A DNA stretch of 64,000 bases, from contig NZ_FQYR01000003.1 in NCBI RefSeq assembly GCF_900141815.1, positions 744,001-808,000 of the forward strand, given 5' to 3'. Below, one piece after another: positions 1-37,277 of the stretch (position 1 is the first letter of the stretch; the number at the start of each line of letters is the position of its first letter). The notes under the pieces were generated by a model, which was not told where the DNA came from, ran no database searches, and saw only the letters and a program-made list of their open reading frames with translations. The DNA is from Rubritalea squalenifaciens DSM 18772 (GTDB lineage Bacteria; Verrucomicrobiota; Verrucomicrobiia; Verrucomicrobiales; Akkermansiaceae). The translations under genes and the position numbers were made by a program.

Positions 1-99
1 GATAGCAGAAATTAGAGAGCGGATGGTGGTGAGAGCAACCTTGTCTTTGGACTTCATTGCATCTTTCATGTCTGACTTGAGAGTTTCTTGAATGCTCAT
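1..99 (-). CDS. yqeY: GatB/YqeY domain protein, 5' part only
   Basis: The 33 visible codons begin at an ATG at 99 and read leftwards off the window. The peptide starts MSIQETLKSDMKDAMKSKDK and continues with a VALTTIRSLISAI stretch, which is the typical YqeY N-terminus (a short helix, then the KxKDKxxLxTxRxLxxAI pattern). YqeY proteins are small helical proteins related to the tail domain of GatB and are thought to act with tRNA or amidotransferase-like partners; their role is poorly defined. No strong Shine-Dalgarno sequence precedes the start. The gene is divergent from the ExbD gene at 206. The remaining roughly 115 codons lie outside the window. Confidence 0.8.
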   Translation of the reverse strand, partial: MSIQETLKSDMKDAMKSKDKVALTTIRSLISAI

Positions 100-205
100 A
101 GCTCAACTGTGTGCAGCTTCATGGAACATGCAAGTGTGAAGTGATGGGGGAGATGAATGCTGCGGGGAAATCTAATAAAAGATGCGCATGGTTCGTTAAC
201 TTCAT

Positions 206-34000: not shown

Positions 34001-34798
34001 ATGCCAGCAGACTACCACACACACACGCCACTTTGCCAACACGCCGAAGGTGAACCTGAAGCCTTTGTGGATGCTGCGATAGCTGCAGGAGTCACAGAAT
34101 ACGGCATCTCTGACCACGCCCCCTTTATTCCTGAGCCATTTGATGACTGGCGCATGCTCGACGAACAGTTCCCACTCTATTTACAGTGGATTGAGAGGGC
34201 TCGAGCACACGCTGGAGAGCGCCTAACAGTCAGAGCAGGAATGGAGTGTGACTGGATTACTGGCTGCGAGGAGTGGACGCGTGAACTCCGTAACCGATAC
34301 GAGTGGGATTACCTGATCGGTTCCGTCCATTACCTTGAAGATAAATGGGATTTCGACAATCCAAAGTGGCTTGGCAAATGGGCTGATACGGATGTTGGGC
34401 TGGTTTGGGAGCAATACTGGAACACTTATATACAAATGGCCGACAGTGGCCTGTTTGATATACTGGGTCATCCAGACCTGATCAAAAAATTTGGATTCAG
34501 ACCTGATGGTGATTTAAGCAGATTTTACGAGCCAGTAATCGATGCCATTGCAACCTCTGGATCGGCGATCGAGCTCAATACCGCCGGGTGGCACAAGCCC
34601 TGTGCAGAGCAGTACCCTCACTCTGAGTTCCTGGAGTTGGCAAGAGATGCGGGTATCGACCTTGTCATTTCTTCCGATGCGCACCATCCATCCGAGATAG
34701 CCAGAGACTTTGACAAAGCAATTACTCTAGCGAAAGCTGCGGGATACGAACAAACGGTTCTCTTCGACAAGGGCTCCAGGAAATACGAAGCTCTCTAA
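34001..34798 (+). CDS. PHP-domain histidinol-phosphatase (HisJ/HisK type)
   Basis: 265 residues. The PHP metal-binding motifs are ADYHTHTPLCQHAEG at the start, GISDHAPF, GMECDWITGCEEW, IGSVHYLEDKW, ILGHPDLIKKFG and ISSDAHHPSEIARDF, in the usual order for Bacillus-type histidinol phosphatases. It would dephosphorylate histidinol phosphate in histidine synthesis, although other phosphoesterase activities are possible in this family. No other his genes are in the window. Its TAA overlaps the stop of the convergent apaG (34795-34798). Confidence 0.88.
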   Translation: MPADYHTHTPLCQHAEGEPEAFVDAAIAAGVTEYGISDHAPFIPEPFDDWRMLDEQFPLYLQWIERARAHAGERLTVRAGMECDWITGCEEWTRELRNRYEWDYLIGSVHYLEDKWDFDNPKWLGKWADTDVGLVWEQYWNTYIQMADSGLFDILGHPDLIKKFGFRPDGDLSRFYEPVIDAIATSGSAIELNTAGWHKPCAEQYPHSEFLELARDAGIDLVISSDAHHPSEIARDFDKAITLAKAAGYEQTVLFDKGSRKYEAL

Positions 34799-35175
34799 CC
34801 TGGCACAGTGAGCTCAAAATCCGGAATAGGCACATAGAATCGTGTGCCAGAATCCGTGACTCCAAAGAAAGCTCCCTGCACGGATGCATCACTCGCTACC
34901 GTGTGATAACTGTTGTAGGAAAACTCGTCACCAGGCATGATCTCAGGAGTCTGCCCCACCACCCCTTTGCCTTCAACTACCAGAGTTTCACCAGCAGTCT
35001 CTTTGACTACCCACTTGCGAGCTTTGATCGTTATCGCCTCATCCGAATTGTTGAGAATCGTGATAAAATAGACAAATGGATGCGGTTTGTCTGGCGGGGA
35101 TTCCAAATTAGGCACGTGCATCACTTCATTTAGCTGCACTTCCACGCCCTCGATTTGTCCAAACTTATAGCTCAC
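34795..35175 (-). CDS. apaG: ApaG domain protein
   Basis: 126 residues, full length for ApaG. HPFVYFITILNNSDEAITIKAR in overlapping short motifs, then RKWVVKETAGETLVVEGKGVVGQTPEIMPG in the same order as the family, and FSYNSYHTVASDASVQGAFFG form the immunoglobulin-like sandwich. ApaG has been linked to cobalt/magnesium tolerance in Salmonella; the molecular role is unclear. It overlaps the convergent PHP gene by four bases and lies 53 bases past the YfbK-like gene start side. Confidence 0.88.
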   Translation of the reverse strand: MSYKFGQIEGVEVQLNEVMHVPNLESPPDKPHPFVYFITILNNSDEAITIKARKWVVKETAGETLVVEGKGVVGQTPEIMPGDEFSYNSYHTVASDASVQGAFFGVTDSGTRFYVPIPDFELTVPG

Positions 35176-35228: not shown

Positions 35229-36578
35229 TTACTTTTGCAGGCTATTCCGGATCACATTAAGAGATTTTTGAGTCTCCTCATCCAGCTCATCCTCCTTGAG
35301 ACTATCCAGCAACTCCAATGTCACCTCTCTGTCATCAGGGATATTAAACTTCAGGCATTGTGCCCAAGCTGCCATCGTCAGGGCCAGACGGACATCCTTG
35401 GATGCATTTCGCCAGTCCCTCTTTGCGTACTCAACTCCAAAGCTCCGGTGATCTGCATCCTCAACTCCAGACGCATTCACATGAACCAGAAGCGCTTTAT
35501 GCCCTTCTTCGAGCTCCATGCCAGGATCCACTTCGTACATCACCATCTGGCCATAACCTGACTGCATTTTGATCATGGTCGGAGCGATGACCCCCTTGGC
35601 GGCAGAGGTTTGATTGTATCCTAATAGTCGATAGGCGTTGATTTGATGCCCGAATGTAAGACCAACCTCCACCATGGGCTCCTCATCAGAGTTGTTCCTG
35701 AGATTAACCAGAGCAATCAACTTACCCTCGTCCCACGGACTATGCAATAATTCAGCCCCAGCATCGATACCGCCAATGATAAAGTCCTTTGGCTGGTCGT
35801 AACTGAAGTGATTGATCAGTTCCTCCACCCTGACATCCTGCGAGATGGGGCGAAGCCCTGCTTGTAGAGCTTGAGTAACCCATTTCCAGCTCGCGTTTCC
35901 TGACACAAGTGGAACCCGAGTAGATGGGTCATTAGAGACCATTCTCCATTCATTTGGTTTTTCCAGGTTCTCATCACCATCACTGTGCCTTACGCGGTCA
36001 GTGGCGCGCTTTTGAATCTCATCCCGAAACTCTCTAGGCTGTAATTCCATGCCTCTCGCAACAGTCATAGCCTCGCCCTCTGAAGAAGGCTGGGATGAAG
36101 TAACTTCAGCTGGCTTGGATTGCTCATTCTCGGTCCAGTCACTCGGATTCTCAGAGACGCGGGCTACTAGGTCGGATGCAGGGATGTCTTCAATGGTTTG
36201 AACGTCCACAAGGTCCATGTTGTCGTCATGAATCAATGCATTGTTCAAAATCACGAAGCAAGCTGTCAGCACAGCTGCTGCGGAAAGAATAACGGTAAGT
36301 GGACGCTTCCACGCAGACTGGCGCATCGAGGTAATATTGTCCGCTACGGGAACCTTACCCGCTTGGTGAATCGCTGCGCGCTGATCAGGATGCAATTTGA
36401 GCGAATCATTGGAGCCAAAGCCTGACGCCAGCAAATCATTCAAAGCGACAAGCTCATTGACGTACTTTCTTAGCTCCGGCTTGCTCTTGATCGCCAGGCG
36501 CACGGCCTCGGCTTCCTTTTGAGGAAGCTCTCCGAAGGCGTATGCCGTCAAGCGCGGGTCGTTTTCGTCGATTTTCAT
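35229..36578 (-). CDS. Anti-sigma/YfbK-like membrane protein without a VWA domain
   Basis: 449 residues. Residues 1-60 are an anti-sigma-like start (DPRLTAYAFGELPQKEAEAV). One membrane helix spans about 93-112, followed by a low-complexity linker (113-225). Residues 229-295 match the N-terminal part of YfbK-type von Willebrand proteins (WKWVTQALQAGLRPISQDVR, VEELINHFSYDQP, then SPWDEGKLIAL). Residues 301-410 match their C-terminal DUF3520 part (INAYRLLGYNQTSA, GQMVMYEVDPG, VRLALTMAAWAQCLK). The VWA domain with its DxSxS metal site, which normally lies between these blocks, is missing. It follows the ECF sigma gene by 19 bases and is presumably its anti-sigma factor. Confidence 0.75.
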   Translation of the reverse strand: MKIDENDPRLTAYAFGELPQKEAEAVRLAIKSKPELRKYVNELVALNDLLASGFGSNDSLKLHPDQRAAIHQAGKVPVADNITSMRQSAWKRPLTVILSAAAVLTACFVILNNALIHDDNMDLVDVQTIEDIPASDLVARVSENPSDWTENEQSKPAEVTSSQPSSEGEAMTVARGMELQPREFRDEIQKRATDRVRHSDGDENLEKPNEWRMVSNDPSTRVPLVSGNASWKWVTQALQAGLRPISQDVRVEELINHFSYDQPKDFIIGGIDAGAELLHSPWDEGKLIALVNLRNNSDEEPMVEVGLTFGHQINAYRLLGYNQTSAAKGVIAPTMIKMQSGYGQMVMYEVDPGMELEEGHKALLVHVNASGVEDADHRSFGVEYAKRDWRNASKDVRLALTMAAWAQCLKFNIPDDREVTLELLDSLKEDELDEETQKSLNVIRNSLQK

Positions 36579-37131: not shown

Positions 37132-37277
37132 CGGAAGGACTATTCACCTGCAAAAACGATTAAACCAAGACTTTCTTAGCACCTAGTTAAGATTTTTTAG
37201 ATTATTTTCTACCCCCTTAATTTGACCTCACAAGATTCACTACTGACAAAATTACGATTTTAGCCCAAACAGAGGGC

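Follow-up and report, generated by a model that had tools for sequence, protein, structure and literature searches.

The locus analyzed here raises the question of what kind of regulator is left when a YfbK-type protein carries no VWA domain. The 449-aa protein concerned is encoded in a window of 64,000 nucleotides from Rubritalea squalenifaciens, directly downstream of an ECF sigma factor gene, as listed in Table 1. The sigma factor is recognized by Sigma70_r2 (42.7 bits), r4_2 (53.5 bits), and TIGR02937 (100.7 bits), each above its cut-off. The two genes are separated by 19 bp, the spacing given in an earlier, sequence-only reading of this DNA, and the peptides quoted in that reading were all found in the 449-aa protein. 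Two further YfbK proteins, both bearing a VWA domain, are encoded elsewhere in the genome on contigs C5 and C2, which makes the window protein the third of its kind in the genome and the one without a VWA domain. The C5 gene directly follows another ECF sigma gene, and this second pair (C5:481285-484146, L002), in which the VWA domain is present, does not share the CTAAGAAA motif described below (4 mismatches). On the 3' side of the anti-sigma gene lies a small ApaG-like gene, at 34795-35175 on the minus strand of the window and at L040:7322-7711 in Rubritalea profundi. Membership of a defence system was set aside, as a PADLOC search gave a best match with an E-value of 0.006 and 14.1 bits, and so was an origin from viruses, as viral contigs searched with one peptide pattern contained no relative.

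Table 1. Position of the sigma operon, its parts, and genes of the candidate target family in the same genome.
Feature	Position	Strand	Basis or remark
449-aa membrane anti-sigma-like protein	35229..36578	minus	ORF
Helical anti-sigma-like domain of the 449-aa protein	aa 1-75		N-terminal
Predicted membrane helix of the 449-aa protein	aa about 91-114		hydropathy peak
VWA-less YfbK scaffold of the 449-aa protein	aa 208-449		beyond the putative periplasmic linker
Hairpin turn aa 296-301, where the VWA domain is missing	35676..35693	minus	model and profile alignment
ECF sigma factor, 177 aa	36598..37131	minus	profile matches above cut-off
GTGAATAGTCC, shortly before the start codon of the sigma gene	37137..37147	minus	sequence
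Promoter-like motif CTAAGAAA (37179-37172), N13, CGTTT (37158-37154)	37154..37179	minus	sequence and conservation
Stretch within target-family gene L207	C7:57955-58374
Target-family gene	C4:57614-58048
Target-family gene	C4:58928-59374
Target-family gene	C4:684135-684557
Target-family gene	C2:409373-409804

The domain content was analyzed with profiles. PF12450 matches residues 208-286 with 34.3 bits (cut-off 25), in agreement with the N-terminal YfbK block that had been read from the sequence. The C-terminal DUF3520 block fared less evenly, since PF12034 (YfbK_C) gave no match to the window protein itself but was matched in 22 of 30 VWA-less orthologues (alignment A1, scanned singly); PF12450 was matched in all 30 when these were scanned in the same way (E ≤ 0.01). 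The absence of a VWA domain between the two blocks was borne out, in that no VWA family was matched at E ≤ 0.01 in any of the 30 orthologues, nor in the 32 VWA-less proteins of alignment A2, a set that overlaps with them. As a control, PF00092 and PF13519 match 26/26 relatives that had been selected for insert length. The VWA-less orthologues are 427-482 aa long, and in every one of them the sigma gene lies directly upstream, with gaps from -14 to 85 bp. Of 145 genomes of the same bacterial family, 100 gave a match, many of these matches covering the N-terminus alone, and the architecture was measured for the window protein and the best 29 others. Genome contigs yielded no relative when scanned with the 449-aa protein by itself; scanned with an alignment, they yielded 216 relatives in 307 stretches, the best 80 of which were kept. 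In a wider set an adjacent sigma gene was found for 55/55 VWA-less rows and 43/49 VWA-bearing rows, with the anti-sigma domain taken as the gene start since several ORF starts were over-extended in another frame. Both forms therefore exist beside ECF sigma genes, which is what the sequence-only reading had proposed to look for among the orthologues. The VWA-less form is thus a stable family and not a one-off deletion.

The site at which the domain is missing was located by comparison of two predicted structures. A PDB sequence search with the whole 449-aa protein returned no solved relative at E ≤ 10, and an AlphaFold model was used (mean pLDDT 79.4). In this model the C-terminus is a closed beta-sandwich with a helical bundle, and residues 113-205 are mainly low-confidence coil and helix. 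The main strands are predicted at 271-279, 287-295, 302-309, 313-318, 343-352, 361-370, and 376-383, and helices occupy 394-448 after the last of these; the turn listed in Table 1 is flanked by the second and third strands. In the model of the VWA-bearing relative L091, strands 276-285 and 288-300 are succeeded by the VWA domain (about 311-490), after which come strands 492-503, 508-514, 541-550, 581-590, and 597-605 and helices 616-675. The order of the main strands is the same in both models, and the VWA domain of L091 falls between the strands that form the hairpin of the window protein. The profile alignments place the break at the same point. VWA-bearing relatives break at about positions 292-298 of the VWA-less profile, with an insert of 166-195 residues (180-195 in 48/52) that holds a VWA domain with the DxSGS motif, and VWA-less relatives align without a break except for two with inserts of 21 and 38 residues, which were counted as VWA-less. 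When the two forms were aligned with hhalign, a probability of 100 and an E-value of 1.1e-51 were obtained over 453 columns, with the gap at the VWA domain; the aligned columns extend over the PF12034 block. A VWA fold hidden in residues 113-225 or 265-300 was also considered, and is ruled out by the predicted structure, in which neither region contains one. In comparison with the VWA-bearing anti-sigma/YfbK form (among L051-L133), the N-terminus and scaffold are common, as are the sigma neighbour in most cases and the promoter motif in part, while a short turn in the window protein stands in place of the inserted domain. In comparison with the YfbK family (PF12450 - VWA - PF12034), PF12450 and the main-strand order are likewise common, whereas the window protein lacks the VWA domain and adds an anti-sigma-like N-terminus, a membrane helix, and an ECF sigma neighbour. 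To our knowledge, E. coli YfbK has none of these three additions.

A possible solved counterpart of the scaffold is ArnB, which ranked first when the VWA-bearing model was compared with the PDB by Foldseek (E 2.4e-15). The sandwich and bundle of the window model align with the Sec23-Sec24 core of ArnB (8s05_A) with Z = 7.9 and rmsd 4.1 over 156 residues, model positions 269-449 falling on chain positions 2-354. GAE/adaptin-ear domains are level with this at Z = 8.0-8.6; values of 7.9-8.6 lie in the band that the comparison tool calls common, and the N-terminal half of the window model was barely covered. As described in the ArnB report, the beta-sandwich of ArnB is split in sequence by the vWA and then followed by the helical bundle, and the predicted structure of E. 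coli YfbK is named a structural orthologue of ArnB (PMC12852372). ArnB has a vWA trunk and is phosphorylated, and the window protein has no vWA; no anti-sigma domain is mentioned in the passages on ArnB considered here (PMC12852372).

The N-terminal half of the protein was then considered with regard to its anti-sigma assignment. Helices are predicted at residues 8-14, 20-32, 34-53, and 64-74, and the curated models remain below their cut-offs, with 30.8 bits for NF052375 (cut-off 100) and 12.8 bits for zf-HC2 (cut-off 22.2), and a zinc-type anti-sigma domain was rejected on the latter score. When the domain profile was compared with the PDB, 3hug_B, which we take to be the anti-sigma factor RslA, was the best match with E 8.5e-4, unrelated chains following closely at 9.9e-4. 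At E ≤ 0.01, RskA_N was matched in 2/26 and zf-HC2 in 7/26 of the VWA-bearing relatives. The anti-sigma N-terminus claimed from the sequence is the weaker of the assignments made here, and the label draws mainly on position, topology, and sigma adjacency. Regarding topology, a single hydropathy peak above 1.6 was observed, at residue 93, with 4 K/R and 1 D/E before the helix and 0 K/R and 6 D/E after it. A single membrane helix, as had been proposed, is predicted from these values, with the N-terminus inside, the positive charges lying on the N-terminal side. Class I anti-sigma factors are alike in their short helical N-terminus, one membrane helix, and ECF sigma neighbour, and differ in that the window protein scores below the curated cut-offs; according to a survey of class I, about 44% of them are without the zinc motif (PMC7406223). 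The terms 'von Willebrand' and 'VWA' are absent from the main text of that survey (PMC7406223).

The region upstream of the sigma gene indicates how the pair may be controlled. Among spaced words in front of the sigma gene at the ten genus loci, CTAAG-N16-CGTT was the most frequent, being present at 8/10, and in five shuffled control sets the best spaced word occurred in at most 3 loci. The extended form, CTAAGAAA-N13-CGTTT, was found with 0-1 mismatch upstream of the sigma gene in 25/55 distinct VWA-less and 6/42 distinct VWA-bearing cases (36/71 and 7/43 with duplicates included), and the reversed motif, used as a control, in 0/97. The VWA-bearing upstreams with the motif include Acidobacteriota and Bdellovibrionota. 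The motif is common to sigma genes of both forms, so both forms can be regarded as one regulatory system. That sigma genes of both forms, in different phyla, are preceded by this motif is a new observation. As regards the protein itself, none of the matches listed from the open full-text literature was a paper on an anti-sigma factor of YfbK type or one without a VWA domain; the ECF classification literature may mention such a protein. Between the promoter motif and the sigma start codon lies GTGAATAGTCC, the same 11 bases being present at 7/10 genus loci (L001, L007, L010, L011, L013, L014, and L016); it is out of frame with the gene in the window and possibly represents the first bases of the message. 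In the 12 genus genomes the exact motif occurs 13 times and the reversed pattern once. Nine of the 13 are at the sigma gene, two are at genes of the family discussed below, and two were judged to be chance, namely C3:815209, which is antisense inside a gene, and one on G041:C33, which is at the start of a coding frame. The motif in the window is one of two exact matches in its own genome; with up to 2 mismatches that genome gives 68 matches, fewer than the 120 of the control. Motifs with 1 mismatch were also seen there before lipoprotein-like and secreted-protein-like genes (L157 and L158).

Outside the sigma operon, the exact spacer-13 motif stands about 34 and 62 bp upstream of two membrane-protein genes, L169 and L162, respectively, whose products have a common N-terminus and linker. 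This N-terminus occurs in 12/12 genus genomes and in 117/145 genomes of the bacterial family. With L162 and L169 left out, the motif (0-1 mismatch) was found in 13/22 distinct upstreams of the family in the genus, against a mean of 0.005 and at most 1 in 200 shuffles that keep single-base make-up only; with these two genes and a further two that belong to a different genus included, the count was 15/26. Outside the genus the motif is sparse, as up to 2 mismatches had to be allowed for 5/21 target upstreams to show it, compared with a mean of 0.36 and a maximum of 2 in shuffles. Three of the five target-family genes of the own genome show 1 mismatch, one shows 2 (C2:409373, measured from its likely start), and one shows 5. 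L207 has 1 mismatch at spacer 14, and its protein ends in a VWA domain over the cut-off (Pfam VWA, 36.5 bits); the ends of L206 and L202 are alpha-toroid-like and PA14-like, respectively, both below cut-off. The own-genome loci labelled L207, L202, L206, and L201 carry VWA, PA14-like, toroid-like, or unassigned ends. The KPSAPSSS-type linker of this family is also present in the VWA-bearing YfbK proteins of the own genome (L002 and L003).

The target family is therefore proposed as a candidate regulon of the sigma/anti-sigma pair in this genus. It should be noted that all 13 genus motifs have spacer 14, compared with 13 at the sigma operon, so another sigma factor could read them. It is possible, if on balance doubtful, that the targets are driven from a related promoter by some other sigma factor and that the pair in the window controls its own operon only; the occurrence of just two exact spacer-13 matches in the own genome points in the same direction as the spacer. 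Against this, the exact spacer-13 matches at L162 and L169 precede genes of the target family itself, and the distance between the anti-sigma gene and a gene of the target family is as short as 1.9-2.6 kb in at least 8 genomes, which belong to two other genera. Co-occurrence of the two is not strict, as weak target matches were seen in g3 genomes without an anti-sigma match, and in several g7 and g13 genomes an anti-sigma match is present and a target-family match absent.

Taking the candidate regulon together with the layout of the protein, we consider it likely that the window protein acts as an anti-sigma factor in the membrane, that its periplasmic sensor is a trimmed one, and that it controls an autoregulated envelope regulon. 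In such a system the N-terminal helical domain would keep the ECF sigma factor bound at the membrane, a single helix would span the membrane, and the flexible linker would carry the beta-sandwich and helical bundle in the periplasm, the periplasmic part corresponding to the ArnB/Sec23-Sec24 core without its VWA trunk. Sensing of an envelope change by this scaffold appears the most likely cause of sigma release. The scaffold might gain or lose a partner, or the protein might be cut, and the sigma factor would then be set free; a site-2-type protease family (PF02163) is present in the own genome and also in all 14 control genomes. Subsequently, the released sigma factor would use CTAAGAAA-N13-CGTTT to transcribe the operon that encodes it; in this genus it would also turn on modular membrane-anchored envelope proteins from promoters with spacer 14, the proteins switched on ending in VWA, alpha-toroid-like, or PA14-like domains. 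The system now has a promoter that can be tested and, within the genus, a set of modular envelope proteins as its candidate regulon. It is unlikely, by comparison, that the C-terminal domain is a constant structural anchor to an envelope partner, with the sigma factor freed by turnover of the protein. GAE/adaptin-ear domains bind peptides, and the resemblance of the sandwich to them is a weak hint of such an anchor, with which the presence of the PF02163 family is also compatible; the conservation of the scaffold, seen in the PF12450 matches of all 30 orthologues, suggests more than a tether.

Under the favoured reading of a trimmed sensor, the manner in which the VWA domain disappeared was analyzed with trees of the scaffold and of the adjacent sigma genes. 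Scaffold trees, for which 96/104 rows were kept by column filling and, in one tree, 4 more with long branches were left out, need 4 changes between the forms, and a single VWA-less clade was not rejected by the AU test (p 0.09) on the tested tree of 48 hand-picked rows. The sigma-gene trees need 6 changes. A single VWA-less clade is rejected by them with p-AU 2.4e-79, and a single clade confined to Opitutaceae and kin is rejected as well (p-AU 0.0003); these trees should not be biased by the VWA loss itself and assume that sigma and anti-sigma genes travel together, the tested tree leaves out one long row, and the bootstrap of the first sigma tree had not settled. Owing to this rejection the loss looks repeated, and the VWA domain was probably lost more than once in Verrucomicrobiota. 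The layout, the sigma neighbour of all 30 orthologues, the profile gap, the two models, and the promoter common to the sigma genes all fit the earlier proposal that the outer scaffold was kept and the VWA domain lost. Two corrections to that proposal arise, namely that the loss probably occurred more than once and that the term "adhesion domain" for the VWA of the relatives is an assumption.

The direction of change was judged from distribution. In the set examined, which is uneven in that it consists of the best 80 of 216 relatives and the class of the window, VWA-bearing forms occur in Planctomycetota, Lentisphaerota, Acidobacteriota, Bdellovibrionota, Myxococcota, and Verrucomicrobiota, and VWA-less forms only in Verrucomicrobiota and the window's own class. 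The VWA-bearing form is probably ancestral. The opposite course, in which the VWA-less scaffold is older and the VWA domain was inserted in other lineages, is decidedly unlikely. Gain and loss are not separated by the trees, and a single VWA-less clade is compatible with the scaffold tree, as the value of 0.09 above indicates; gain fits poorly, however, with the spread of the VWA-bearing form over six phyla against the confinement of the VWA-less one, with the VWA-less rows placed among VWA-bearing ones in Opitutaceae and kin by the sigma tree, and with the presence of both YfbK families in E. coli in the control scans. A large domain is thus absent from precisely one hairpin of a regulator that has remained in use, which probably happened several times, and natural pairs with and without the VWA domain offer a way to ask what this domain does in signalling.

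The presence of a VWA end in L207 suggests a further arrangement, which we hold to be very unlikely, in which the sigma factor induces this membrane-anchored VWA protein and the latter docks on the empty sandwich of the anti-sigma protein; if true, the VWA domain supplied in trans would complete a sensor split over two proteins, into which the regulon feeds back. Membrane-tethered vWA proteins with a linker are reported in Verrucomicrobia among inner-membrane vWA force transducers (PMC12204202). L207 likewise combines the N-terminus of its family, a linker, and a VWA domain over the cut-off, and any membership of the same family as those proteins is putative. Finally, a decayed or mis-assembled YfbK-type anti-sigma gene in one genome, which the failure of PF12034 to match the window protein could suggest, deserves next to no credence, as a recent deletion or pseudogene is ruled out by 30 orthologues that agree in layout, have open frames, and lie beside a sigma gene, the closed fold is predicted well, and the promoter motif is kept. 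The ORF at L130:759-3455 joins an ECF sigma factor to an anti-sigma-like domain and to a YfbK scaffold with a VWA domain, and it lies upstream of a separate sigma/VWA-less pair in the same genome.
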